From assembly GCA_031266795.1 (NCBI GenBank), contig JAISAI010000040.1, positions 1 through 32,019 on the forward strand: DNA of 32,019 bases, written 5' to 3'. Made by a program: the position numbers and the translations under genes. Below, in pieces: positions 2,081 through 25,085 of this stretch (position 1 is its first letter; each line of letters opens with the position of its first letter). Below the pieces are notes generated by a model, which searched no databases, had not been told where the DNA came from, and saw only the letters and a list, made by a program, of their open reading frames with translations. This DNA comes from Eubacteriales Family XIII. Incertae Sedis bacterium (GTDB lineage Bacteria; Bacillota; Clostridia; Peptostreptococcales; Anaerovoracaceae).

Positions 2081-3530
2081 TACGCAGCTTACGGTAGCAA
2101 ATATCAAAAACAACTCCGGCATGACGACCGACGAGATCATCAAGAGCGAGACCGATCTCTGGCTGTCGAGCCGGGCACGGGAGAACCAGCTGCTCGGGGA
2201 GGCGTATTACCGCGTCAACGGCGAAGGCGTCGAGATCCTGAAAAAGGAGCAGAAGCTACCCAAGCGGTCGAACATCAAGCGGGTACACCCTTTCGTCCGC
2301 GAGCTTACGGACCAGAAAGTGGGATACCTGCTCGCGAACGATCCGGAAGTGGCCACGGATAATGCGCGGTACAAAGAGGCCCTTGACAAGGTCATGGACA
2401 AGCGCTTCATGCGTCTGCTCATGCGCACAGTCAAGGATGTCGTGAAGTGCGGGATGGCCTACTGGCAGCCATATTTCAACTCGGAGGGCGGGCTCGCTTT
2501 CAAGCGTCTGAAGCCGTGGGAGGTGAAGCCGCTGTGGCTTGATGACGACCACGAAAAGCTCGGCGGGTTCATCCGCGTATGGGAGCGCGAGGAGTATGTT
2601 TCCCGCCAGAAAAAGGCCGTACGGTATGTGACCTACGGGGATGACAAATGCTTCAGGCACTACAGGTACGAGGAGGGGGGCACACGCTTTGAGCCGATTG
2701 GCACAGAGCCGCACTTCTGCCTCGTCACGCAAAAGGGAGGGAAAGAGGCAAAAGCGCCTTATAAGTGGGGGCGGGCGCCCTTGGTGTACTGGAAGGCCAA
2801 TGCCGAAGAGCAAGGGATTGTAGAGCAGCTTAAGAGCCTCGTAGACGACTATGACCGCCAGGCGAGCAAAAACAGCGATCTGCTGGCTGACCTCGCACAA
2901 CTCGTGTGGATAATTAAGGGCTACGGTGGCCAGAACCTCGGCAGCTTTATGGATGACCTCCTCAGGTATATGGCGCTGAAGGTGGACGGCGACGGCGGCG
3001 TTGACACCATCAAGATGGAGCCCGACACGGACGCGGTCGCCGAGCTGCTCGCGCGGACCCGGCAGGACCTGTACCAGTTCGGCCGCGGCGTCGACACGCA
3101 GAATGAGGACCTCGGCAATGCGTCCGGACAGGCGATCCGGTTCAGGTACGGCAACCTCGATCTGGACAGCTCCATCATTGAGAGCGAGCTGCAAGCAAGT
3201 TTTGAGATTGTCGAGTGGTTTATCCAGCAGGCATTGCTGCTTACAGGGCAGGGCGACTTCACATCCGAGGATGCGCAGATCGTATTCCACCGCGACACTA
3301 TCATCAACGAGAAGGAGATTGTCGAGATATGCGCCAAATCCAAAGGGGTCATATCCGATAAGACAATAATGGAGCACCACCCGTGGGCGGCCGAGGATGA
3401 AGGGGAGCGCCTCGCGGAGCAGGAAGCTGATGCCATGAAGCGGGCCGAAGAGTATCAAAACGCATTCGGCCTAAAGGCAGCGGATGGTGACGGCGCCGGC
3501 GCTGCGGCAGGGCAGACTCAGGCAGCATGA
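2055..3530 (+). CDS. Phage portal protein (SPP1 gp6-like)
   Basis: The portal forms the dodecameric vertex ring through which DNA enters and leaves the head, and it docks the terminase. The roughly 490-aa product resembles the SPP1 gp6/PBSX XkdE portal family, with a conserved RxHPFVRELTDQKVGYLLANDP-type N-terminal segment and a central segment LVDDYDRQASKNSDLLADLAQLV. The start is ambiguous: GTG 2049, ATG 2055 and ATG 2067 are in frame and all overlap the end of terL. ATG 2055 is chosen because a G-rich stretch precedes it. The C-terminus is Ala/Gly-rich and the gene overlaps the next one by 4 nt. Confidence 0.93.
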   Translation: MTTRMIITDTQLTVANIKNNSGMTTDEIIKSETDLWLSSRARENQLLGEAYYRVNGEGVEILKKEQKLPKRSNIKRVHPFVRELTDQKVGYLLANDPEVATDNARYKEALDKVMDKRFMRLLMRTVKDVVKCGMAYWQPYFNSEGGLAFKRLKPWEVKPLWLDDDHEKLGGFIRVWEREEYVSRQKKAVRYVTYGDDKCFRHYRYEEGGTRFEPIGTEPHFCLVTQKGGKEAKAPYKWGRAPLVYWKANAEEQGIVEQLKSLVDDYDRQASKNSDLLADLAQLVWIIKGYGGQNLGSFMDDLLRYMALKVDGDGGVDTIKMEPDTDAVAELLARTRQDLYQFGRGVDTQNEDLGNASGQAIRFRYGNLDLDSSIIESELQASFEIVEWFIQQALLLTGQGDFTSEDAQIVFHRDTIINEKEIVEICAKSKGVISDKTIMEHHPWAAEDEGERLAEQEADAMKRAEEYQNAFGLKAADGDGAGAAAGQTQAA

Positions 3531-6626: not shown

Positions 6627-7538
6627 ATGGCAGATAATGTAGTGAATTACGCGACTAAGTTTGAGAAGACGCTCAAACAGAAGTACACGCAGGAGCTCAA
6701 GACGACGGACCTCACGACTCCGGTAGGCAGTCAAGGGCTTCGTTTCGGCGATGCGAAGCATATCAAGATTCCGTATCTCAACGTCGGCGGGTACAAGGAC
6801 CATGGCCGTGCCGGCGGGTTCAACCGCCAGGCGGTGGAAAACGAGTGGATGGAGAAGGCATTGGCTTTCGACCGCGATGTCGAGTTCTTTGTCGATGTGA
6901 TGGATGTGGAGGAAACCAATCAGGTCCTTGCCGCGGCGAACCTGACGAACACGTTCTTGACGGAACAGGCTATCCCCGAGACGGACTGTTACCGTATCTC
7001 GAAGCTGTACGCTGACTTTGTCTCCCTCGGTGGCGTAGCCGATACGGTGGCGATTACCGCCGCGAACATCCTCTCGAAGTTCGACGACCTCATGGAGGCG
7101 CTCGACGAGGATCAGGTACCGGAAGAGGGCAGGATGGTCTATGCCACTCCGGCGATCCACAAGATACTCAAGTCGGCGCAGGGCATTTCCCGCTCCGTAA
7201 AGAACGGCGAGAAGGCCATCGCCCGCGAAGTCACGCGCCTTGACGACGTCAATATCGTGAAGGTTCCGTCCGCGCGCATGAAGACGGCGTACAACTTCAC
7301 GGACGGCTGCGTTCCCGGCACTACTGCCGGCCAGATCAATATGCTGCTCTTGCATCCGTCGGCCGTAATCGCCGCAGACAGGCACGCTTACATCAAGCTG
7401 TGGCCTCCGGGTACACACACGACGGGCGATGGGTACCTGTACCAGAACCGCAAGTACGGCGACCTCTTCGTGATCGACACCCGCGTGAAGGCGATCAAGG
7501 CGAACATCACACCGTATACCCCGCCCTCCCAAGGGTAG
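6627..7538 (+). CDS. Major capsid protein
   Basis: The 303-aa protein forms the icosahedral head lattice, presumably in the HK97 fold. It resembles capsid proteins of Clostridium and PBSX-like phages: an N-terminal MADNVVNYATKFEKTLKQKYTQELKTTDLTT, then a beta-rich region with IKIPYLNVGGYKDHGRAGG, and later the helix EALDEDQVPEEGRMVYATPAIHKIL. It directly follows the scaffold and has a strong AGAAAGGAC ribosome site, which fits a highly expressed gene. No protease gene is nearby, and none is needed for many gp7/GP20-type heads. The length is normal. Confidence 0.92.
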   Translation: MADNVVNYATKFEKTLKQKYTQELKTTDLTTPVGSQGLRFGDAKHIKIPYLNVGGYKDHGRAGGFNRQAVENEWMEKALAFDRDVEFFVDVMDVEETNQVLAAANLTNTFLTEQAIPETDCYRISKLYADFVSLGGVADTVAITAANILSKFDDLMEALDEDQVPEEGRMVYATPAIHKILKSAQGISRSVKNGEKAIAREVTRLDDVNIVKVPSARMKTAYNFTDGCVPGTTAGQINMLLLHPSAVIAADRHAYIKLWPPGTHTTGDGYLYQNRKYGDLFVIDTRVKAIKANITPYTPPSQG

Positions 7539-9538: not shown

Positions 9539-10858
9539 ATGGGTCTTGGTGGTGGAGTATGGACTGGTCAGGATAAAATCCTGCCGGGCGCATACATCAA
9601 TTTTGTCGCGGCGGCTCGCCCCGGCAGCGGGATAGGCGAGCGCGGAGTCGTTGCGCTCCCTATGGCGCTCGACTGGGGGGCTGTCGGTGAGGTCGTTACG
9701 GTCACGCAGCAGGAGTTCTATCGGTATGCTGAGCGCCTGTTCGGCTATACGTATGACGCGCCACAGATGATCAATCTGCGGGAGGTTTTCAAGAACGCCC
9801 TCAAGGTGCTGGTCTATCGCTTGGCAAACGGCGCTATGGCCGCATCGAACGACTATGCTACGGCGAAGTATCCGGGGGCGCGGGGCAATGACATAAAGAT
9901 CGTCGTCGCCCCGAACATCGACCTTGCGAACCAGTTTGACGTCAGCACGGTCGTGGGGAAGAAGATCGTGGACACGCAAACAATACAGGCCGCGTCGGGG
10001 CTTATAGCGAACGACTGGGTTGTCTTCGATCCGGAGGCGCCACTTACGCCGACCGCTGGGACCCCGCTCACGGGCGGGAGCAACGGAGACGCCCCGACGG
10101 GAGCGGAGTACCAGGGCGCGCTCGACGCATTCGAGAACTGTTACTTCAACGTGCTTGCCCTGCCGATTGAAGAGGATGCGTATACCCAGTCCGTCAAATC
10201 GGTCTATACGGCGTATACGCGGCGTCTGCGCGACGAGGAGGGCATCAAGTTCCAGCTTGTTTGCTACCGGTACGCCGAGGCCGACTACGAGGCTGTGGCC
10301 AGCGTCGAGAATGCCGTGGTAGGCACGAACCCCGCAGCGGCCGTATACTGGACGGCGGGGGCGCTTTCGAACGCGGCCGTGAACACGTCGCTCTCAAATA
10401 CCCCGTACAACGGGGAGTACGAGGTAGGTACGGCCTACACGCAGTTCCAGCTTGAAGAGGGCATACTCGCCGGGAAGTTCCTGTTCCATAAGGTCGGCGA
10501 CGAGGTGCGCGTCCTCACGGACATCAATACCTTGACGACGATCACTGAGGGCAAGAACGAGGATTTCAAGTCGAACCAAACGTGCCGGATCATCGACGAG
10601 ATCGGCACGAGCATTGCGCGGATCTTCAACAACGACTTTTTCGGCAAAGTCCCCAATGATTCGGCGGGGCGTGTAGCGCTATGGTCACGTATCGTCGAGC
10701 ACCACAAGACGCTCGAGACTATGCGGGCGCTTGAAAACTTCAATCCGGACGACGTGGCCGTGGCCGCCGGCGAGAGCAAGAAAAGCGTTGTGGTGAACGA
10801 TGCGATAACCGTTGTCGGAATCATGGAAAAACTGTACATGACGGTCGTCGTGCAGTAG
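9539..10858 (+). CDS. Tail sheath protein (XkdK-like)
   Basis: The 439-aa protein forms the contractile outer tail. The N-terminal MGLGGGVWTGQDKILPGAYINFVAAARPG... and the segment GERGVVALPMALDWG are typical of PBSX XkdK/phage tail-sheath proteins. The C-terminal third contains LTDINTLTTITEGKNEDFKSNQTCRIIDEIGTSIARIF, the conserved sheath core that docks on the tube. Its presence shows that this is a myovirus-type particle. The gene directly precedes the tube gene (13 nt). Confidence 0.95.
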   Translation: MGLGGGVWTGQDKILPGAYINFVAAARPGSGIGERGVVALPMALDWGAVGEVVTVTQQEFYRYAERLFGYTYDAPQMINLREVFKNALKVLVYRLANGAMAASNDYATAKYPGARGNDIKIVVAPNIDLANQFDVSTVVGKKIVDTQTIQAASGLIANDWVVFDPEAPLTPTAGTPLTGGSNGDAPTGAEYQGALDAFENCYFNVLALPIEEDAYTQSVKSVYTAYTRRLRDEEGIKFQLVCYRYAEADYEAVASVENAVVGTNPAAAVYWTAGALSNAAVNTSLSNTPYNGEYEVGTAYTQFQLEEGILAGKFLFHKVGDEVRVLTDINTLTTITEGKNEDFKSNQTCRIIDEIGTSIARIFNNDFFGKVPNDSAGRVALWSRIVEHHKTLETMRALENFNPDDVAVAAGESKKSVVVNDAITVVGIMEKLYMTVVVQ

Positions 10859-16104: not shown

Positions 16105-16549
16105 TATGGTGCCAAACTATGACAACTTGGACGAGTCCGAAATCTTCGGCGACGAGGACGACTACACCGACGAGGATGATGTAGCTGAAGAGGCCGAACA
16201 GCAGCCCTCGTATACGTACCGGATCAAAGACGACGGCACGGTGTCCGGCATGGTCGACGGCCTTGACGCGGTCAAACAGGCTATACGCCTCATCCTCAGC
16301 ATCGAGAGATACGACTACACGATCTATTCGTGGGACTATGGCTCGGAGATCAAGCATCTCTATGGGATGCCGATCGACTACTGCATCCCCGAGCTCGAAA
16401 GGGTGGTCACGGAAGGCCTGTTGCGCGACGACAGGATAAAAGCCGTAGGCGGGTTTGGCTTTGGGTCGGACAAAAGGTCAATCACCATTACTTTTACGGC
16501 ACACACAATTTTTGGAGACATTGAATTGGAGCACGAGGCGAATGTTTGA
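16097..16549 (+). CDS. DUF2634 (XkdS/gp25-like) baseplate protein
   Basis: The 150-aa protein belongs to the baseplate wedge group: after an acidic, disordered N-terminus (residues 1-38) comes [51 protein letters not shown], the DUF2634/XkdS pattern related to T4 gp25. It should link the hub to baseplate J. The TTG at 16097 is preferred because GGGGTGAT lies about 6 nt upstream. An in-frame ATG at 16106 is an alternative. It overlaps the collagen-like gene and the next gene by 8 nt. Confidence 0.88.
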
Positions 16550-17612
16550 AAATGTAACAGGCGACTTGATAATGGAGCGTATGCTCGCGCGCGTACCTGA
16601 ACACATACGCGGTAAGTCCATAGATAAGCGGGAGGGCTCTATCATCTATGACGCGCTTGCCCCGGCCGCGCAGGAGCTCTTTGTGATGTACACCTGCCTT
16701 GACGACATATTCGACGAGGCGTTCGCCGATACGGCGGCCCGCGAGTACCTCGTGCGCAGGGCGTCCGAGCGGGGCTTGGCGCCGTTTCCCGCAACATACG
16801 CTATATGGCGCGGGGAATTTAATATGGACGTGCCGATCGGCAGCAGGTTCTCGATCGAGGACCTCGACTACGTCGTGATCGGCAAGATCGAGGATTTTGT
16901 TTTCGAGCTCCAGTGCGAGACGGTGGGCGCCGTCGGCAATGACTACGCCGGGGACCTCATCCCCGTGGAGTACATCGATGGCCTCGAGTATGCGGAGCTG
17001 ACGCAGCTCCTGATACCGGGCGACGATGAAGAGGATACGGAGAAGTTCCGGGCGCGGTATTTTGAGTCGTTCAAGTACCAGTCATTCGGCGGGAATATCG
17101 CGGACTACAAAAGCAAGGTGCTTGCGATCCCCGGCGTCGGCGCCGTGAACGTCGTGCCTGTGTGGGACGGCGGCGGCACCGTCAAGATCGTGGTCTCGGA
17201 CTCGCAGTACCACGCCCCCACGCAAACGCTTATTGACCGGGTACAGTCCGAGATCGATCCAGGTCAAACGGGCCTTGGCTACGGCCTTGCGCCCATCGGG
17301 CATGTGGTGACTGTAGAGGGCGTAGAAACGACGGTCGTAAACCTCGCGGCGCTCATCGAGTATGAAACCGAGTATGACTGGCCGGCGGTGCAAGTGGAGG
17401 CCTGCGCGAAGCTGGATGACTATTATAACGAGCTGTCGCGGAACTTCGGGTCGTCCCAGCAGATCATCATCCGCATATCGCAGATCGAAATCAGGTTGCT
17501 CACGGTCAAGGGCATAGCGGATATTGCGGATACGCAGATAAACGGGATAGCGGCCAACTTGGTCTTGCAGAACAATAGATTGCCGCTTAGAGGTACTTTT
17601 AATGGATCGTAA
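16542..17612 (+). CDS. Baseplate J-like protein (XkdT-like)
   Basis: The 356-aa wedge protein matches phage P2 gpJ/PBSX Xkd[52 protein letters not shown], then GTLIPVEYIDGL-type segments, then GDDEEDTEKFRARYFESFKYQSFGGNIADYKSKVLAIPGVGAVNVVPVWDGGGTVKIVV. These form the outer baseplate ring that triggers sheath contraction. The ATG at 16542 lies at the end of the DUF2634 gene. A longer upstream frame exists but lies in the neighbour and is not used. It overlaps the next gene by 11 nt. Confidence 0.93.
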   Translation: MFENVTGDLIMERMLARVPEHIRGKSIDKREGSIIYDALAPAAQELFVMYTCLDDIFDEAFADTAAREYLVRRASERGLAPFPATYAIWRGEFNMDVPIGSRFSIEDLDYVVIGKIEDFVFELQCETVGAVGNDYAGDLIPVEYIDGLEYAELTQLLIPGDDEEDTEKFRARYFESFKYQSFGGNIADYKSKVLAIPGVGAVNVVPVWDGGGTVKIVVSDSQYHAPTQTLIDRVQSEIDPGQTGLGYGLAPIGHVVTVEGVETTVVNLAALIEYETEYDWPAVQVEACAKLDDYYNELSRNFGSSQQIIIRISQIEIRLLTVKGIADIADTQINGIAANLVLQNNRLPLRGTFNGS

Positions 17613-18144
17613 ACTTGCGGGCTATTTACCACAGCCCCTCGCCGAGCTACGCGAGTTTCAGCTGCTCACGGCCGCAGAGGATCCCGAATTTGATCTTCTA
17701 TGGGATGCGTACGATCGGGTGCTTGACAGCGCCTACATCGAGACAGCCGACGAAGCCGCGATCGAAAGGTACGAGAAGATGTTCGAGGTCATACCCGGCG
17801 AGTTCGATTCGCTCGAAGACCGGCGCGCCTACATCAGCGTCCTGCTGTCGACCATAGCCCCCTATACGTATCCGTGGTTTGCCGCCCTGCTGAAGGGGAT
17901 GTACGGCGATGAAAATATCGATATTACTTTGGACGCGAACCACTACAAACTTTCGCTCGATCTAAAGATCGGTTCCAAGTTTTTTTCGAGGGTGGTGAGG
18001 GAACTCGCCCGAAAGTGCGTCCCGGCGAACATCCTCGTCAATATCGTGCTCGATTTCAACCGGTGGGAAGATATTCGGCCGCGTACGTGGAGTGAAGTGT
18101 ATGCAAGCAAATGGTATGAGGTCAAGGAGGTAAAAGAGCAATGA
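17602..18144 (+). CDS. DUF2313 (YmfQ/XkdU-like) tail protein
   Basis: The 180-aa protein resembles the DUF2313/YmfQ family (Mu gp48-like), which follows baseplate J in many myophages and connects the baseplate to fibres. The pattern includes MDRKLAGYLPQPLAELREFQLLTAAEDPEFDLLWDAYDRVLDSAYIETADEAAIERYEKMFEV and later EDRRAYISVLLSTIAPYTYPWFAALLKGM. The ATG at 17602 overlaps the J gene. It overlaps the next gene by 4 nt. Confidence 0.88.
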   Translation: MDRKLAGYLPQPLAELREFQLLTAAEDPEFDLLWDAYDRVLDSAYIETADEAAIERYEKMFEVIPGEFDSLEDRRAYISVLLSTIAPYTYPWFAALLKGMYGDENIDITLDANHYKLSLDLKIGSKFFSRVVRELARKCVPANILVNIVLDFNRWEDIRPRTWSEVYASKWYEVKEVKEQ

Positions 18145-18524
18145 GGTATGCCCCAAATTATAACTTAAAGATACCGGAGTACGACGATAATGCGGACATC
18201 TCCGATATTGATGATAACTTCGATGCGATCGACGCAATCCTGAAAACCAAGACTGAAATCGATGAAGTCGAAATCACCCTCGCAGCGTCCGCGTGGTCGT
18301 CGGGCGTGGCGACGATAAGTAATGAGGCGATACCAACTAACCCCGACGGAGATGTGGTCGTGACACTGCAAGAGGGCGCGACGGACGCACAGGAGAAAGC
18401 GGCGGGCAACGCAACAATAAAGCCTGTGCTCGGGAGCCAGCAGGCCGGCAGCCTGCAAATACGGGCACAGGGGGTTGTCCCGGCGATCGCCTTGCCGATA
18501 CTGCTCAAGATCGTTAAGAAATAA
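18141..18524 (+). CDS. Small tail/fibre-associated protein
   Basis: The 127-aa protein has an acidic N-terminus (NYNLKIPEYDDNADISDIDDNFDAIDAIL), a pattern seen at the beginning of phage tail fibres and fibre adaptors. It is followed by a beta-rich part with AWSSGVATISNEAIPTNPDGDVVVTLQEGATDAQEKAAGNATIKP, which recalls carbohydrate-binding or trimeric fibre tips. It overlaps DUF2313 by 4 nt and precedes the lectin-like gene by 13 nt. The role as a fibre or adaptor is inferred from position and motifs. Confidence 0.7.
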   Translation: MRYAPNYNLKIPEYDDNADISDIDDNFDAIDAILKTKTEIDEVEITLAASAWSSGVATISNEAIPTNPDGDVVVTLQEGATDAQEKAAGNATIKPVLGSQQAGSLQIRAQGVVPAIALPILLKIVKK

Positions 18525-18537
18525 GGAGGACAGACTT

Positions 18538-19335
18538 ATGGCAATACTATCAGGTATAGACTCTTCGCCGCTGGGCGTAGCGGTGGCGATGGGGCTCGCG
18601 GACGGCAACGGGAAGGTCAACCCGAAGCGGGAACAGAGCGGGACAGTGACCGGGATGTCGTTTATAGTCAATACATATTCGACGAAGACGGTGACATTTC
18701 CTAAAGCCTTTGACCATGTACCGAATGTAAAGGCATGGTGTAGTGGGGGGAACTGCGGCATAGTAAACGCTTCGTGGCCAAGTAAAACAGGCTTTACGTT
18801 GCGCACATTCGGGTTAGGAGCAGTAAATTACACCGATCAAGTGGACTGGGAAGCCAAAGACCTAGAATATATGTTCGGGGGGGGGCTAACGCATGTTCGC
18901 TATCCCGTGGCGGTGGCCGCGGCTATCTCCGATGGGAGGTGGCGGCATGAGCGTGCTGACACATTTCCCGGCCCCCGGCCCGGACTACTCGAAAGAGACG
19001 AGCGACAGTTTCACTTACGATCGGGTACGACTGACAGGAGACTACTACAAGGTGACGATGTCCGGCAGCAAGAATTTCGCGTCACTCGCGGTGTCAGGAC
19101 TCATAACTACAGTCCCCGAGAAATATCGTCCGACGATGACAGTGAATATGGGTGTGGGCGTCACAAACACGCCTGTATCCAACTATTACGCAAATGTGGC
19201 CACAAACGGCAAAGTGTCTTTGGGCGGCACGGCACTTTCGGGCGGCTCCTGCTGGATACTCTTTTCGGGCAGCTGGATACACAAGGGCGATTAAGAAGGC
19301 GGCTGGCCACCACCGAGAGGGGGTGGGCGGCATGA
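18538..19335 (+). CDS. Tail-fibre-type protein with H-type-lectin-like domain, frame altered at a 9-G tract
   Basis: The ATG at 18538 follows GGAGGA. Residues about 35-110 look like an H-type lectin: TKTVTFPKAFDHVPNVKAW, later TGFTLRTFG, and VDWEAKDL near the end, so it may bind host sugars. As sequenced, nine Gs (18877-18885) keep this frame open to 19335, but the added tail is Arg-rich, lacks protein-like character and crosses the next gene. With eight Gs the frame would stop at TAA 18887-18889 and give a tidy 116-aa protein ending FGGG, as expected for a lectin. So the true product is probably the short one. The tract is either phase-variable or a sequencing error. Confidence 0.6.
   Translation: MAILSGIDSSPLGVAVAMGLADGNGKVNPKREQSGTVTGMSFIVNTYSTKTVTFPKAFDHVPNVKAWCSGGNCGIVNASWPSKTGFTLRTFGLGAVNYTDQVDWEAKDLEYMFGGGLTHVRYPVAVAAAISDGRWRHERADTFPGPRPGLLERDERQFHLRSGTTDRRLLQGDDVRQQEFRVTRGVRTHNYSPREISSDDDSEYGCGRHKHACIQLLRKCGHKRQSVFGRHGTFGRLLLDTLFGQLDTQGRLRRRLATTERGWAA
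18877..18885 (+). repeat. Nine-G homopolymer tract at the end of the lectin-like gene
   Basis: A run of nine Gs lies 2 nt before a TAA in the +1 frame. A gain or loss of one G would switch between a 116-aa product (8 Gs), the long fused frame (9 Gs) and a third frame ending at the TGA that overlaps the next ATG at 18947 (10 Gs). Such tracts slip readily during replication. Confidence 0.9.
18947..19294 (+). CDS. Small tail-fibre-type protein, first MSV-THFP copy
   Basis: The 115-aa protein starts at ATG 18947 with GGAGG 7 nt upstream. It begins MSVLTHFPAPGPDY. The beta-rich rest (SDSFTYDRVRLTGDYYKVTMSGSKNFASLAVSGLI... ending CWILFSGSWIHKGD) suggests a compact fibre-tip or receptor-binding module. 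The leader (ribosome site plus first eight codons) is nearly repeated before the next gene, so the two genes look like exchangeable cassettes. No enzyme motif was seen. The ATG at 18893 is possible but lacks a ribosome site. Confidence 0.65.
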   Translation: MSVLTHFPAPGPDYSKETSDSFTYDRVRLTGDYYKVTMSGSKNFASLAVSGLITTVPEKYRPTMTVNMGVGVTNTPVSNYYANVATNGKVSLGGTALSGGSCWILFSGSWIHKGD

Positions 19336-19736
19336 GCGTGTTTACACATTTCCCAAGCGGCGGGATCAGCATCGTAGAGCATATAAGCTCTGGCGGATGG
19401 GAGATAGACAAGTACTCGGACGGGCGGTGGCGGGGTGAGTATACAAAAACCGGCCAAATAACATACACGGCATCGAACATAGGGGTTTTTGACGGCAGCG
19501 GCAACGCATCAAACTCGCCCACACGCACAATACCTATCCCTGTGGGCTATGGACTGAAAGTATCAGCGGTGCTACTTGCCAACTGTTCGTTGCGAGGGGG
19601 CATCTATGATGCTACCGCAAGCTCTGTAAGCAAGACGGATACGACAATTTCTGTCGTATGGAGAGTACTGACCTTATACACACAGGAGACGTTAAACAGC
19701 CAAGAATCAATTATAGCAATAGGGACGTGGGCATAA
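19332..19736 (+). CDS. Small tail-fibre-type protein, second MSV-THFP copy
   Basis: The 134-aa protein begins MSVFTHFPSGGISIVEHISSGGW, with a GAGAGGGGG ribosome site 8 nt upstream. Residues 1-8 match the previous gene except for one position, but the rest differs. The beta-rich body with KYSDGRWRGEYTKTGQITYTASNIG and a mid-segment NASNSPTRTIPIPVGYGLKVSAVLLANC suggests a receptor-binding fibre end. Shared leader and diverged body fit module exchange between fibre genes. Confidence 0.65.
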   Translation: MSVFTHFPSGGISIVEHISSGGWEIDKYSDGRWRGEYTKTGQITYTASNIGVFDGSGNASNSPTRTIPIPVGYGLKVSAVLLANCSLRGGIYDATASSVSKTDTTISVVWRVLTLYTQETLNSQESIIAIGTWA

Positions 19737-21560: not shown

Positions 21561-21873
21561 AATCGCCTCATAATTTTAACCATCTTTTAACCACCAGTAA
21601 GGCCAAAACGGTTTAGTTGTGTATATCGGTTTATATGCCAGTGTGGTTGAAAAATTGCGATACATTCACGTTGTATAGTACCATATATTATTGGATGTTA
21701 GAATATTTTGGAAACAGTAGGATTAATACATAGCCTTAACGCACACCCCAGGATAGGCGATATTGTACCACATCCAATTTTTTTTAGCCACTATTTAGCC
21801 ACTTTTTTTTAAGAACTGATTTCAACTGATTTCAAATTTGCTTTGTCGCGCTCGTTTAGGTATCCTATTATTT
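21561..21873. other. AT-rich phage-host junction, probable attachment region
   Basis: No gene was found in these 313 bases. The stretch is much more AT-rich than either side. It contains a 9-bp inverted repeat (ATTGGATGT 21690-21698 with ACATCCAAT 21770-21778) and phased direct repeats further right. It lies between the last phage gene and the first host gene. The absence of an evident promoter for the latter fits an insertion here. The attachment core and host target could not be defined without the left end. Confidence 0.5.
21783..21833. repeat. Phased direct repeats at the presumed attachment end
   Basis: TTTAGCCACT occurs at 21783-21792 and 21794-21803 (11-bp period), and AACTGATTTC is tandem at 21814-21823 and 21824-21833 (10-bp period). 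Such helical spacing is typical of arm-type integrase or excisionase sites. The role is inferred. Confidence 0.55.
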
Positions 21874-23175
21874 ATGAATGTGGTGGACTTCTTCGGGCAA
21901 ACCGTTAATAGGAATTTTCGGCGGCATCCGCGCTTTACGCGCGGCTTCGTCAGGCTCGGCTACGCGGCGCAGCAGCGCATGCTGCGCGGGAAGCGCGGCG
22001 ACAGGCGGCTCCCGTCGCAGATACTGCTTGAGCAGCTTTCCATGCGCGCGATGCGCGCTCCGCTTTCTGATCCATCCCGGACGGCCATCGTGAATATGTT
22101 CGCCCCCGCAGAGCTGCTGCACGCCATGGGGCTGCACCCGCTCTGCGCGGAGGGTTTCTCGTCGTATCTGTCGGGCGGCAGGTGCGAGCGCGGCTTTCTC
22201 GACTACGCCTCGGAGCGCGGCGTGCCGGAGACCTTCTGCTCGTATCATCGGGCGCTCATCGGCGCCGTCCTCGCTGATCTCGTACCGAAACCGCGCTTTA
22301 TCATCTCTTCGAGCTCCGTGTGCGACGCGAACACGAGCACGTTCCGGACGGTGGCCGCGCACTACGGCATGGACGCGTTCTACATCGACGTGCCCCACGA
22401 AGAGAGCGGGGATGCGGTAGCGTACGTGCGGGGGCAGCTCGAGGACTTGGTGCGCCTGCTCGAGGACGGCATGGGCAAAAGGATGGATGAGGAGGCGCTC
22501 GGGCGCGCGGTCAGGAATACAAACGCTTCCGTCAGGTATCAGCTGAAATTTATAGAGGAACTCTCGCGCAGGGATTTTTACACGTATATAGCGGCTGAGA
22601 TGCACCGGATCATCGCAGGGCACAATCTGCTCGGGACGGACGAGGCGCTCGCGTTTTTTCGCGCGCAGTACGAGGATATACTCGGGTCGCCGCCGCTGGG
22701 TGGCGGCGCGGGGGCGGGGCGGCGAAAGCGCGTCATATGGTGCCATGTGCTGCCTTACTATGTGGCGCCGCTCAAGGAGGCGTTCAACTTTTCCGACAGG
22801 TATCAGCTCCTCATGAGCGACCTGAACTACGATCAGCTCATAGGGCTCGACGCGGGGGACGTGCTCGGCTCTATGGCGCGCCGGCTCATCACGAACCATT
22901 TCAACGGGAGCGCGGAGCGCCGCGCGGCGTCCGTGACGGATATGGCGAGGAAGCTCGGGGCGGACGGGGCCGTGATATTCTGCCACTGGGGCTGCAAGCA
23001 CTCGAACGGCGGCGCGTTCATGCTGCGCGACGCGCTGAAGGACGCCGGCGTGCACACGCTCGTTCTCGACGGCGACGCGTGCGACCGGCGCAACACGAAC
23101 GAGGGGCAGTTCGCCACGCGCTTGCAGGCTTTTCTCGAGATTTTGGACGGGCGACAGGGCGGGGCGGCATGGTAG
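21874..23175 (+). CDS. 2-hydroxyacyl-CoA dehydratase/BcrBC-type subunit (HgdB family)
   Basis: The 433-aa protein belongs to the pfam06050 HgdB/BcrC group of iron-sulfur enzymes, which includes 2-hydroxyacyl-CoA dehydratases, benzoyl-CoA reductases and double-cubane cluster proteins. Seen are TAIVNMFAPAELLHAMGLHPLCAEGFSSYLSGGR, then SSSSVCDANTSTF, then FYIDVP, and a C-terminal DGDACDRRNTNEGQFATRLQAFLE. Several Cys residues could bind an Fe-S cluster. It overlaps the next ORF, which carries a second such module and the activator, so the substrate reductase and activator form one operon. The substrate is unknown. The start lacks a clear ribosome site, perhaps because the prophage sits just upstream. 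Confidence 0.85.
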   Translation: MNVVDFFGQTVNRNFRRHPRFTRGFVRLGYAAQQRMLRGKRGDRRLPSQILLEQLSMRAMRAPLSDPSRTAIVNMFAPAELLHAMGLHPLCAEGFSSYLSGGRCERGFLDYASERGVPETFCSYHRALIGAVLADLVPKPRFIISSSSVCDANTSTFRTVAAHYGMDAFYIDVPHEESGDAVAYVRGQLEDLVRLLEDGMGKRMDEEALGRAVRNTNASVRYQLKFIEELSRRDFYTYIAAEMHRIIAGHNLLGTDEALAFFRAQYEDILGSPPLGGGAGAGRRKRVIWCHVLPYYVAPLKEAFNFSDRYQLLMSDLNYDQLIGLDAGDVLGSMARRLITNHFNGSAERRAASVTDMARKLGADGAVIFCHWGCKHSNGGAFMLRDALKDAGVHTLVLDGDACDRRNTNEGQFATRLQAFLEILDGRQGGAAW

Positions 23176-25085
23176 GCTACGTATGCAAGTACACGCCCAT
23201 CGAGGTGTTCGCGGGCTTCGGCGAGGCGCCCTCGTTCTTGTTGCCGGAGGAGGCGTCGTACGACTGCGCCGACAGCCTGATGTGGCCGGCCGTGTGCGGC
23301 TACGCCAAGTCCGTGCTTCAATGCCTGCACGAGGGCGACGGCGGCGCTTGCGCTTGCGGCGCTGCGGTGTTCACGGACTGCTGCGACGCGATGAAGCGGG
23401 TGTACGACATACTGTCGCGCGGCGCGGTTCAGGCGGGCGGCGCTACGGACATCGGCGCTTCTGCGGAACATGCGGGATCGGCGTATGCCGGCGCTCCCCC
23501 GGAGTCCGCCGGCGCGGTGGCCGCGCCGTTCATGGTATGGCTTCCCCGCGTGATAACGGACGCTTCTATCCGCGAATACGCGCGCGGCGTCGGCTCGTTC
23601 ATCGAGCGGTATGAGGCGTACTGCGGACGGCGTTTCGATGTCCCGGCGTTTCTCCGCGCGTGTGCCCGCGCGAATGCGGGCAATGGCCCGGCGCGTGACG
23701 GCGAGGGCTATGTCGCGCTCATGGGGGCGCGCGCGCCGGCCTCGCTCATGAACGCGGCGCAGGGGCTCTGTGCGCTTCCCGTGCGCAATCTCACGTGCGG
23801 CTCGGGCGAGCGGAAATTTTCCGGTATTCCGGACGCCGACAGGGTGAACAACGCCGGGGTGGGCAATGGCGGGGTGAGCGCCGGACGCGCGGGTCTCACG
23901 GACGAGTTGCTGATTTGGTACGCGGGCGAGCTGCTCGCGCAGACGCCGTGCATGCGCATGAACGACAGCGGCGCGCGGAGCGCATTGACGGGCGACCCCA
24001 GTCTTAAAGCGGTCGTCTACCATACGATACAGTTCTGCGATTTTTACGGGTTTGAGTACGCGCGCCTGCCGCAGGGTGTCCCCGCGCTGAAGCTCGAGAC
24101 GGACTATACGCCGGCGTCCTCGGGACAGCTCGCCACGCGCCTGCAGGCGTTTTTCGAGAGCAACGGCATGCTCCTCGCGGACGCGCGCGCCCGGGCGCCC
24201 GAGAGCGCCGGGCCGTCGCACACCGGACGCGGCCCCGCGGACTATGGGGCGTTCCGTATTACGGGCAACGACAGGAGGGACGACATGCCAAACAGATACT
24301 ATGCGGGCGTGGACAGCGGCTCCACGTCCACGAACGCCGTCGTCATAGACGCGGACGCGGAGATCGTCGCGTCTTCGACCGTGCCCACGGGAGCGGACAG
24401 CGCCGCGGCCGCGAGGATGGCCTTGAGCGAGGCGCTCGCGGAAGCGCATAGTACCGAAGGCGAACTCGCGGCCATCGTCGCCACGGGCTACGGCAGGGTC
24501 TCCGTCCCGTTCGCGGCCCAAGACGTGACGGAGATCACCTGTCACGCCAAGGGCGCGCACCGGCTCGCTCCGGGGGCGCGCACGGTGATAGACATCGGCG
24601 GGCAGGACAGCAAGGTCATCCGGCTAAGCCCCGACGGGAGCGTGACGGAGTTTTCGATGAACGACAAATGCGCGGCCGGCACGGGGCGCTTCCTTGAGCT
24701 CATGGCCGCCACGCTCGGCATGGATATGGACGAGATGGCCCGCGCGGGATTGCGCCCGGGCGAGACGGTGGATATTTCGAGCATGTGCGCCGTGTTCGCC
24801 GAGTCGGAGGTGATTTCCCTCATCGCGCGGGGCAAGAGCATCGAGGATATAGTGTGGGGCGTCGATCTCGCCATAGCGGGCCGCGTCGCGAGCATGGCCA
24901 CGCGCCTCGGCGCGGAGGCGCCGTACGTGATGACGGGCGGCGTCGCGAACAACGCGGGCGTCGTCAAAGCGCTTGGCGAAAAGCTGCGCGAAAGGAGCGG
25001 GCGGCATGGCGGCCTGACCGTGCCCGGCTCACCGCAGATATGCGGCGCCCTCGGCGCGGCGCTCATCGCGCGTGATACCGCGTAA
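23169..25085 (+). CDS. Fused HgdB-type module and BadF/HgdC-type ATPase activator
   Basis: The 638-aa ORF overlaps the previous stop. Residues 1 to about 345 form a second HgdB-like module with CKYTPIEVF, FTDCCDAMKRVYD, LPRVITD and TRLQAFFES; an Ala/Gly-rich linker follows. Residues 373-638 are an ASKHA activator: AGVDSGSTSTNAVV (phosphate 1), DIGGQDSK (phosphate 2), GGVANNAG (adenosine), and the cluster ligands Cys501 in DKCAAGTG and Cys540 in SSMCAVF. The activator hydrolyses ATP to push an electron into its dehydratase partner. A strong internal ribosome site and ATG at 24285 suggest that a free activator is also made. The 21874 and 23169 modules probably form the paired dehydratase subunits. 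Confidence 0.85.
   Translation: MVGYVCKYTPIEVFAGFGEAPSFLLPEEASYDCADSLMWPAVCGYAKSVLQCLHEGDGGACACGAAVFTDCCDAMKRVYDILSRGAVQAGGATDIGASAEHAGSAYAGAPPESAGAVAAPFMVWLPRVITDASIREYARGVGSFIERYEAYCGRRFDVPAFLRACARANAGNGPARDGEGYVALMGARAPASLMNAAQGLCALPVRNLTCGSGERKFSGIPDADRVNNAGVGNGGVSAGRAGLTDELLIWYAGELLAQTPCMRMNDSGARSALTGDPSLKAVVYHTIQFCDFYGFEYARLPQGVPALKLETDYTPASSGQLATRLQAFFESNGMLLADARARAPESAGPSHTGRGPADYGAFRITGNDRRDDMPNRYYAGVDSGSTSTNAVVIDADAEIVASSTVPTGADSAAAARMALSEALAEAHSTEGELAAIVATGYGRVSVPFAAQDVTEITCHAKGAHRLAPGARTVIDIGGQDSKVIRLSPDGSVTEFSMNDKCAAGTGRFLELMAATLGMDMDEMARAGLRPGETVDISSMCAVFAESEVISLIARGKSIEDIVWGVDLAIAGRVASMATRLGAEAPYVMTGGVANNAGVVKALGEKLRERSGRHGGLTVPGSPQICGALGAALIARDTA
24285..25085 (+). CDS. Possible stand-alone activator from an internal start
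   Basis: AGGAGG (24273-24278) lies 6 nt before ATG 24285, which opens MPNRYYAGVDSGSTS, the natural beginning of a BadF/HgdC activator. The product of 266 aa is the usual length of a free activator. Since the activator must dock to and leave its partner, a separate product is plausible even though the frame is continuous with the upstream module. Confidence 0.5.
   Translation: MPNRYYAGVDSGSTSTNAVVIDADAEIVASSTVPTGADSAAAARMALSEALAEAHSTEGELAAIVATGYGRVSVPFAAQDVTEITCHAKGAHRLAPGARTVIDIGGQDSKVIRLSPDGSVTEFSMNDKCAAGTGRFLELMAATLGMDMDEMARAGLRPGETVDISSMCAVFAESEVISLIARGKSIEDIVWGVDLAIAGRVASMATRLGAEAPYVMTGGVANNAGVVKALGEKLRERSGRHGGLTVPGSPQICGALGAALIARDTA

Follow-up and report, generated by a model that had tools for sequence, protein, structure and literature searches.

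A poly-G tract as a proposed three-way selector of tail tips in an Anaerovoracaceae prophage

The tail-tip locus and its G tract

The window (the whole 32,019-nucleotide stretch of DNA analysed) corresponds to contig C91 in a draft genome of 1.81 Mb (142 contigs, completeness 73.8%) and carries a contractile-tailed prophage with terminase, portal, sheath, tape measure, baseplate J and Gp48-like genes. Small genes follow 3' of the Gp48-like gene, and after them a holin-like gene and an endolysin-like peptidase gene. The small genes include one referred to here as the stem, a label taken from its position alone, and three tandem genes referred to as tips (Table 1). The stem has no Pfam match, and its PHROG match reaches E 0.066 only. 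Past the prophage, positions 21838-25085 contain 2-hydroxyglutaryl-CoA dehydratase-like genes and a BcrA/BadF-type ATPase gene, at which the called ORFs overlap by about 440 bases.

Table 1. Features of the tail-tip region of the window (n, number of Gs in the tract)
Feature	Position	Strand	Basis or remark
Baseplate J-like gene	16455..17612	+	Pfam Baseplate_J, E 2.4e-50
Mu Gp48-like tail gene	17602..18144	+	Pfam Phage_Mu_Gp48, E 3.7e-18
Stem, 127 aa, directly 5' of the tips	18141..18524	+	ORF
Tip 1, H-lectin-like	18538..18889	+	116 aa with eight Gs
G9 tract (dial), 3' end of tip 1	18877..18885	+	Sequence
Stop A, TAA; n = 8 or 11	18887..18889	+	Tip 1 ends, nothing coupled
Overlap B, ATGA; n = 7 or 10	18947..18950	+	Stop overlaps tip 2 start
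Tip 2, 115 aa	18947..19294	+	ORF and sequence comparison
Skip frame C, n = 9; no stops across tip 2 (+2 frame)	18886..19335	+	
Overlap C, ATGA; n = 9	19332..19335	+	Stop overlaps tip 3 start
Tip 3, 134 aa; holin-like gene next	19332..19736	+	

The first-pass annotation, made from the sequence alone, had called the first tip gene lectin-like. The Pfam match of tip 1 to H_lectin (PF09458; E 0.013, 16 bits) is below the curated cut-off of 24, whereas that of tip 2 from the related genome G341 is above it (E 3.3e-9, 37.2 bits), and in a comparison set of 29 sequences, from which tip 1 of G165C2 and tip 1 of G165C56 were left out, the two tips match each other (31.7% over 82 aa, E 3.2e-9). Within this set, tips 2 and 3 of the window are weakly similar (24% over 94 aa, E 0.007), and tip 3 also has a weak resemblance to G165 and G372 tips (E 7e-4). 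The Pfam scan also placed a G372 tip above the cut-off for Gp53-like_C, a phage tail-fibre C-terminal domain, and a G306 tip just below it; five other tips scanned had no credible Pfam match. The modules thus seem to draw on a common, exchangeable pool of tip domains. The tips probably bind receptors. Structure prediction for tip 1 alone gave a useless model (mean pLDDT 33), phmmer against solved structures found nothing credible (best E 0.33), and tip 1 matched only itself in 99 related genomes. No new relative was found with tip 1 in viral contigs or in phages (tblastn), with window DNA or tip 3 in phages, or with the window baseplate J or one G165 tip in viral contigs.

The nine-G tract that the first-pass annotation placed at the end of this gene is indeed present there, and frame reading confirmed the outcomes that this annotation gave for eight, nine and ten Gs. 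Three different ends follow from the number of Gs alone (length modulo 3). With eight Gs, the frame from 18538 reaches the TAA at 18887-18889 and gives a 116-aa product. With ten, it ends at a TGA (18948-18950) within the ATGA of the tip 2 start. With nine, as assembled, it encodes a 265-aa protein with an Arg-rich tail, crosses the whole of tip 2 and ends at a TGA (19333-19335) within the ATGA of the tip 3 start. This nine-G tail had been judged implausible, a judgement at odds with a frame that stops on the start codon of tip 3. Overlap of stop and start codons, as in termination-reinitiation coupling, is thus present at both 18947 and 19332. Tip 3 has no G tract at its own end. A fusion of tips 1 and 2 was rejected, because the register in frame with tip 2 meets a TAA immediately. 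Raw tract frequency was likewise rejected as evidence: about 0.29 single G runs of at least nine are expected in the window by composition (both strands, first-order estimate), so one such run is unremarkable, tract length alone proves nothing and the three-stop layout carries the argument.

Recurrence of the layout and the open skip frame

The Gp48-like gene, used as the query for finding relatives, has matches in 15 of 296 family genomes, its own included. Of 14 stretches around these relatives, ten have no G run of at least eight, three have one and the last has only a contig-end artefact, so that comparison with relatives, which had been proposed as a check on the tract, cuts both ways. 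The run in the last case (L053, G274:C11, 6143-6194) lies at a contig end, consists of 22 Gs followed by an A run and looks like an assembly artefact. A named isolate, Anaerovorax odorimutans SL.3.17 (G165; family Anaerovoracaceae, Peptostreptococcales), has prophages in which the stem gene ends in G12 or G10 and the tips end in G tracts.

A search pattern (eight Gs, 35-65 bases, GGNG, 2-6 bases, GCRTGA) was present in 7/349 genomes of the family sample and in 1/349 with the reversed control. The order sample, part of which is shared with the family sample, gave matches in 6/393 genomes, of which one lies outside the family. The phylum sample gave matches in 2/398, one being the window's own genome, against 5/398 with the reversed control. 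The pattern is therefore enriched in the family (7 vs 1) and at chance level beyond it (2 vs 5). Among named genomes, a stricter pattern matched A. odorimutans SL.3.17 and two further family genomes, which are Clostridiales/Family XIII drafts.

Eleven tip-end tracts were examined in seven genomes, six of them besides that of the window: one in the window, four in G165 (C2, two in C56, C206), one in G372, two in G306, and one each in G341, G211 and G216. At all 11, one register stops on the start of the next tip and one stops early. This agreement is weak evidence alone, because the search pattern itself requires a start codon there; four of the tracts (window, G165:C2 and both of C56) had come to light before the pattern search. 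The stop/start overlaps of the relatives are ATGA, GTGA or TAATG. The three-way layout recurs in G165 (C2, both tracts of C56, C206), G372 and G306, and in G341 by way of a second tract inside the Shine-Dalgarno sequence of tip 2, which makes four of the six other genomes with tip-end tracts. In the G341 locus (L154, G341:C152, oriented 6918-6984) the first of two successive G8 tracts closes tip 1 and the second forms the tip 2 Shine-Dalgarno; the second could add a tip 2 fusion as a further outcome.

Strong evidence for the module comes from the skip frame, which is held open beyond chance. No stop interrupts the +2 frame along the full tip (97-127 codons) in 8/11 tips directly after a tract, compared with 0/18 other tip and stem genes at these loci (Fisher p 3.8e-5), in a test that left out tip 1 of G165C56 and read several of the other genes in frames running past a tract. 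The list of other genes initially had 22 entries, of which 21 were tested; three that follow a tract (G306 tip 4, G211 tip 2 and G216 tip 2) were regrouped into the tract-following set, leaving 18. These three are also the cases in which the skip frame is closed. Each of them closes its array, with non-tip genes next and so no tip left to reach by skipping, whereas a further tip is present in all eight open cases (open in 8/8 with a further tip vs 0/3 without; Fisher p 0.006). That the frame matching the window's Arg-rich tail is stop-free in every module with a further tip to reach also tells against calling the tail implausible.

In seven of the eight open modules the skip frame terminates precisely at the start codon of the further tip (ATGA for the window, GTGA for all four G165 modules, TAATG for G372 and G306); in G341 it is entered through the second G8 and ends in ATGA. 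Synonymous-codon shuffles, which preserve each protein and its codon use, gave probabilities of an open frame of 0.021 for the window, 0.003, <0.0002, 0.009, 0.022, 0.0002 and 0.075 for six other open modules, and 0.017 for G341. The closed frame of G216 has 4 stops against a shuffle mean of 4.0, as expected. Three candidates from outside the family (L180, L204 and L246) have an open +2 frame with probabilities of 0.15-0.43; in GC-rich DNA, then, an open frame has little meaning by itself.

The tip-end tracts are 8 to 11 Gs long, and the register is not conserved among them: two are in A, seven in B and two in C. Three G165 stem tracts (L047, L057 and L155), which have similar flanks, are 12, 10 and 10 Gs long. 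An in-frame fusion of stem and tip would need 8, 11 or 14 Gs there, and all three copies are in short, unfused registers. Differences of length and register between copies are what drifting tract lengths would leave.

Proposed tip selection by tract length and competing explanations

The tract, the three stops, the start-codon overlaps, their recurrence and the registers that differ between copies point to a slippage-driven three-way selector of tail tips acting by translational coupling, and this reading is considered probable. The prophage would carry several small tail tips in tandem, which probably bind receptors, and the tract at the 3' end of tip 1 would change length in this lineage through replication slippage, its length modulo 3 setting the frame in which ribosomes exit tip 1. 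In register A they would stop at once and tip 1 would be made alone. In register B they would stop on the start of tip 2, which would then be translated by termination-reinitiation. In register C, that of the assembled copy, they would read through tip 2 in another frame and terminate at the tip 3 start, so that tip 2 would be occluded and tip 3 translated, and receptor binding would presumably vary with the tip made. The idea in the first-pass annotation that the tract sets which fibre end is made stands in part: the gene is a tail-tip gene whose product the length can set, but the outcomes are not mainly alternative ends, as two of the three stops address the starts of further tip genes.

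Coupling alone does not explain an exclusive choice, because in register B tip 1, with about 20 added residues, would be made alongside tip 2. A deselected tip may be inactivated by its frame-shifted tail, which would make the choice exclusive. Several of these tails end in Ala-Ala, and the pattern by which some modules were found favours a final Ala; that such ends act as a degradation tag is speculation. The 3/11 modules that have no skip frame count against the selector.

A broader version of the selector, put forward tentatively and with more doubt than confidence, is a stepping device in which homopolymer length modulo 3 would address tandem tips, the silent skip frame would be kept by selection, and modules could be nested to form a tree of tip choices. 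Nesting is exemplified by G165:C56, where the tip reached by skipping has its own tract, which would choose between two further tips.

In overlapping genes as treated in the cited part of PMC6728339, the downstream start depends on a ribosome arriving from upstream. The likeness to the window lies in a stop that overlaps a start, a downstream gene that needs upstream translation and local structure at the start; the overlap described there is fixed, whereas in the window the tract length would pick one of two. The Shine-Dalgarno sequences of 19 coupled starts have a mean predicted unpaired probability of 0.19, compared with 0.51 for 24 ORF starts of the window taken from a mechanical ORF list (p 2e-7), 0.28 for the same 19 sites with shuffled flanks (p 0.003) and 0.44 on average for 12 control starts of G165. 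The paired state is only modest, as 10/19 coupled sites exceed the 25th percentile of their own flank shuffles, and much of the contrast with ordinary genes is due to the G-rich motif itself. At overlap B the Shine-Dalgarno is G-rich and predicted to be largely paired. Such predicted pairing fits starts that need a ribosome from upstream; the strong G-rich motifs of the tips might also permit independent starts.

G runs are slippery in principle, and a ribosome or RNA polymerase slipping on the run could yield three products in set ratios from a fixed DNA length, for which the same three stops would serve equally well. Such recoding should keep one register, yet all three occur among the 11 tracts and their lengths vary, and it is judged unlikely. 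More improbable again is that the tract varies only the C-terminus of tip 1, and with it binding, the downstream overlaps being ordinary operon packing. C-terminal phase variation by a 3' homopolymer has been proposed for Helicobacter canadensis in the cited part of PMC2823697, and the tract registers would add tails of about 20 or about 130-160 residues; the proposal gives no account of a +2 frame that is open just where a further tip exists. Sequencing or assembly error, the plain alternative of the first-pass annotation, with a true length of eight and tip 1 simply ending at TAA, is hardly credible: the source is a draft metagenome assembly and long G runs at contig ends do exist (L053), but the layout is also found in the A. 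odorimutans isolate and in other assemblies, the nine-G frame has no stop within tip 2 and terminates precisely at a start codon, and a one-base mistake in length would leave the architecture intact.

The proposed selector has partial counterparts among known systems. DNA-inversion switches of tail fibres (Mu gin, P1 cin and the bifidobacterial shufflon) need a recombinase and inverted repeats. Their outcome, a phage population with alternative receptor-binding ends, is also the one envisaged for the window, where homopolymer slippage is proposed instead. The usual picture of homopolymer phase variation is of one gene switched between two positions, and poly-G tracts reportedly occur in many phage genera. 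Poly-G phase variation of phage receptor-binding proteins is described for Campylobacter Fletchervirus (Sorensen et al. 2021, Cell Rep 35:109214, cited in PMC11868660). There, according to the cited part of PMC11868660, long G tracts in receptor-binding genes switch expression and diversify the population; the window resembles it in having a long G tract in a putative receptor-binding gene. In the Fletchervirus NCTC12673 (GU296433), both G runs of at least seven precede long open stretches, an on/off layout: the G11 has 42 codons open before it and 271 after it in one frame, and the G9 has 64 codons before it in one frame and 210 after it in another. The 64-codon frame also ends in ATGA, and the ORF starting there has only 6 codons. 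The window layout therefore differs, its tract lying at the 3' end of tip 1 and not in the upstream on/off position. Helicobacter canadensis shares with the window a homopolymer near the 3' end, three frames with different ends and a possible merger with the next gene; the system as presented in the cited part of PMC2823697 has neither coupling to alternative downstream starts nor a skip frame, and the word "phage" is absent from the main text.

A search of the open-access literature found no paper that joins C-terminal phase variation with termination-reinitiation or describes a skip frame. With poly-G phase variation of phage receptor-binding proteins already published, what is new here is the 3' tract, the tandem tips, the three outcomes and the selected skip frame. 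One tract appears to address either of two downstream genes or neither. If this is true, a phage could maintain a repertoire of receptor-binding tips with no recombinase, long out-of-frame ORFs that annotation discards would have a function, and the logic would be testable, as length modulo 3 predicts the tip.

G tracts beyond the family and in the host genome

Among named genomes the stricter pattern was found in 16 stretches, five from three family genomes and 11 from unrelated lineages; of the latter, only L164, L167, L169 and L171 passed a loose frame test. With the matches listed from a pattern scan of viral contigs, the candidates number at least 41, of which 11 are from the family and 30 are others; most of the 30 are only putative, and many are probably due to chance. 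The G165 stem has 323 relatives in viral contigs, of which 80 were kept as loci. Six of the 80 have a G run of at least eight, L098 passes the loose overlap test, and no three-way module was found in these 80.

In the matches listed from the viral and named-genome scans, further arrays of tandem tail-tip-like genes have G tracts at their 3' ends close to the next start, in L252 (two G8), L179 (G8, G10 and G11), L203 (three G10) and L169 (two G8), and single tip-end tracts of 11, 8 and 9 Gs were tested in L188, L207 and L210; all seven loci passed a pattern and a loose frame test only. The stop/start overlap was found at 2/2 tracts of L252, 1/3 of L179, 1/3 of L203 and 1/2 of L169, and at the tested tract of each of L188, L207 and L210. 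The +2 frame is open in L188 (P 0.027), with no register leading into it, and no open skip frame was found in the other six, which look like two-position switches. A two-position coupling switch may thus be widespread in phages and drafts. One L252 tip matched only its own contig among viral contigs, and searches in phages with DNA of L188, L252 and L179 and with one L207 tip gave no new relative.

The window Gp48-like protein has one viral relative, the distant L026 (IMGVR_UViG_2744054506_000001), in which a G9 (7216-7224) lies in frame inside an 869-codon fibre-like open frame, where one-base shifts lead to an early stop. In another prophage (L044, G012:C20), a G13 at 9886-9898 lies between two small genes 3' of a Gp48 homologue; the three-stop test is inapplicable there, because no upstream frame of 60 codons reaches the tract. 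A further contig of this genome (L045, G012:C9) has four G tracts of 11-19 in a row within about 95 bases (3154-3248).

The host genome has 18 separate G runs of at least nine, and the 17 outside tip 1 (L010-L025) are 9-12 long. Thirteen of these 17 are located inside a gene with a signal-peptide-like start or no more than about 300 bases upstream of one, at or near its 5' end; in three of the 13 (L011, L016 and L017) the run is on the strand opposite to the gene. G9 tracts are present in all five genomes of the host genus and in 29/56 other genomes, with none in the remaining 27; they are not confined to the host genus, as G018 and G012 have many. The tract positions suggest a likely surface phasome in an Anaerovoracaceae genus, and since G tracts are also found in surface genes of the host genus, variation in phage and host may run in parallel. 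Eight such genes were scanned, of which four have BspA-type LRR and fn3, beta-helix, or GLUG and Big_4 domains and four have no Pfam domain. At L018, L019 and L022 the signal-peptide-like start is in one frame and the long remainder of the gene in another.
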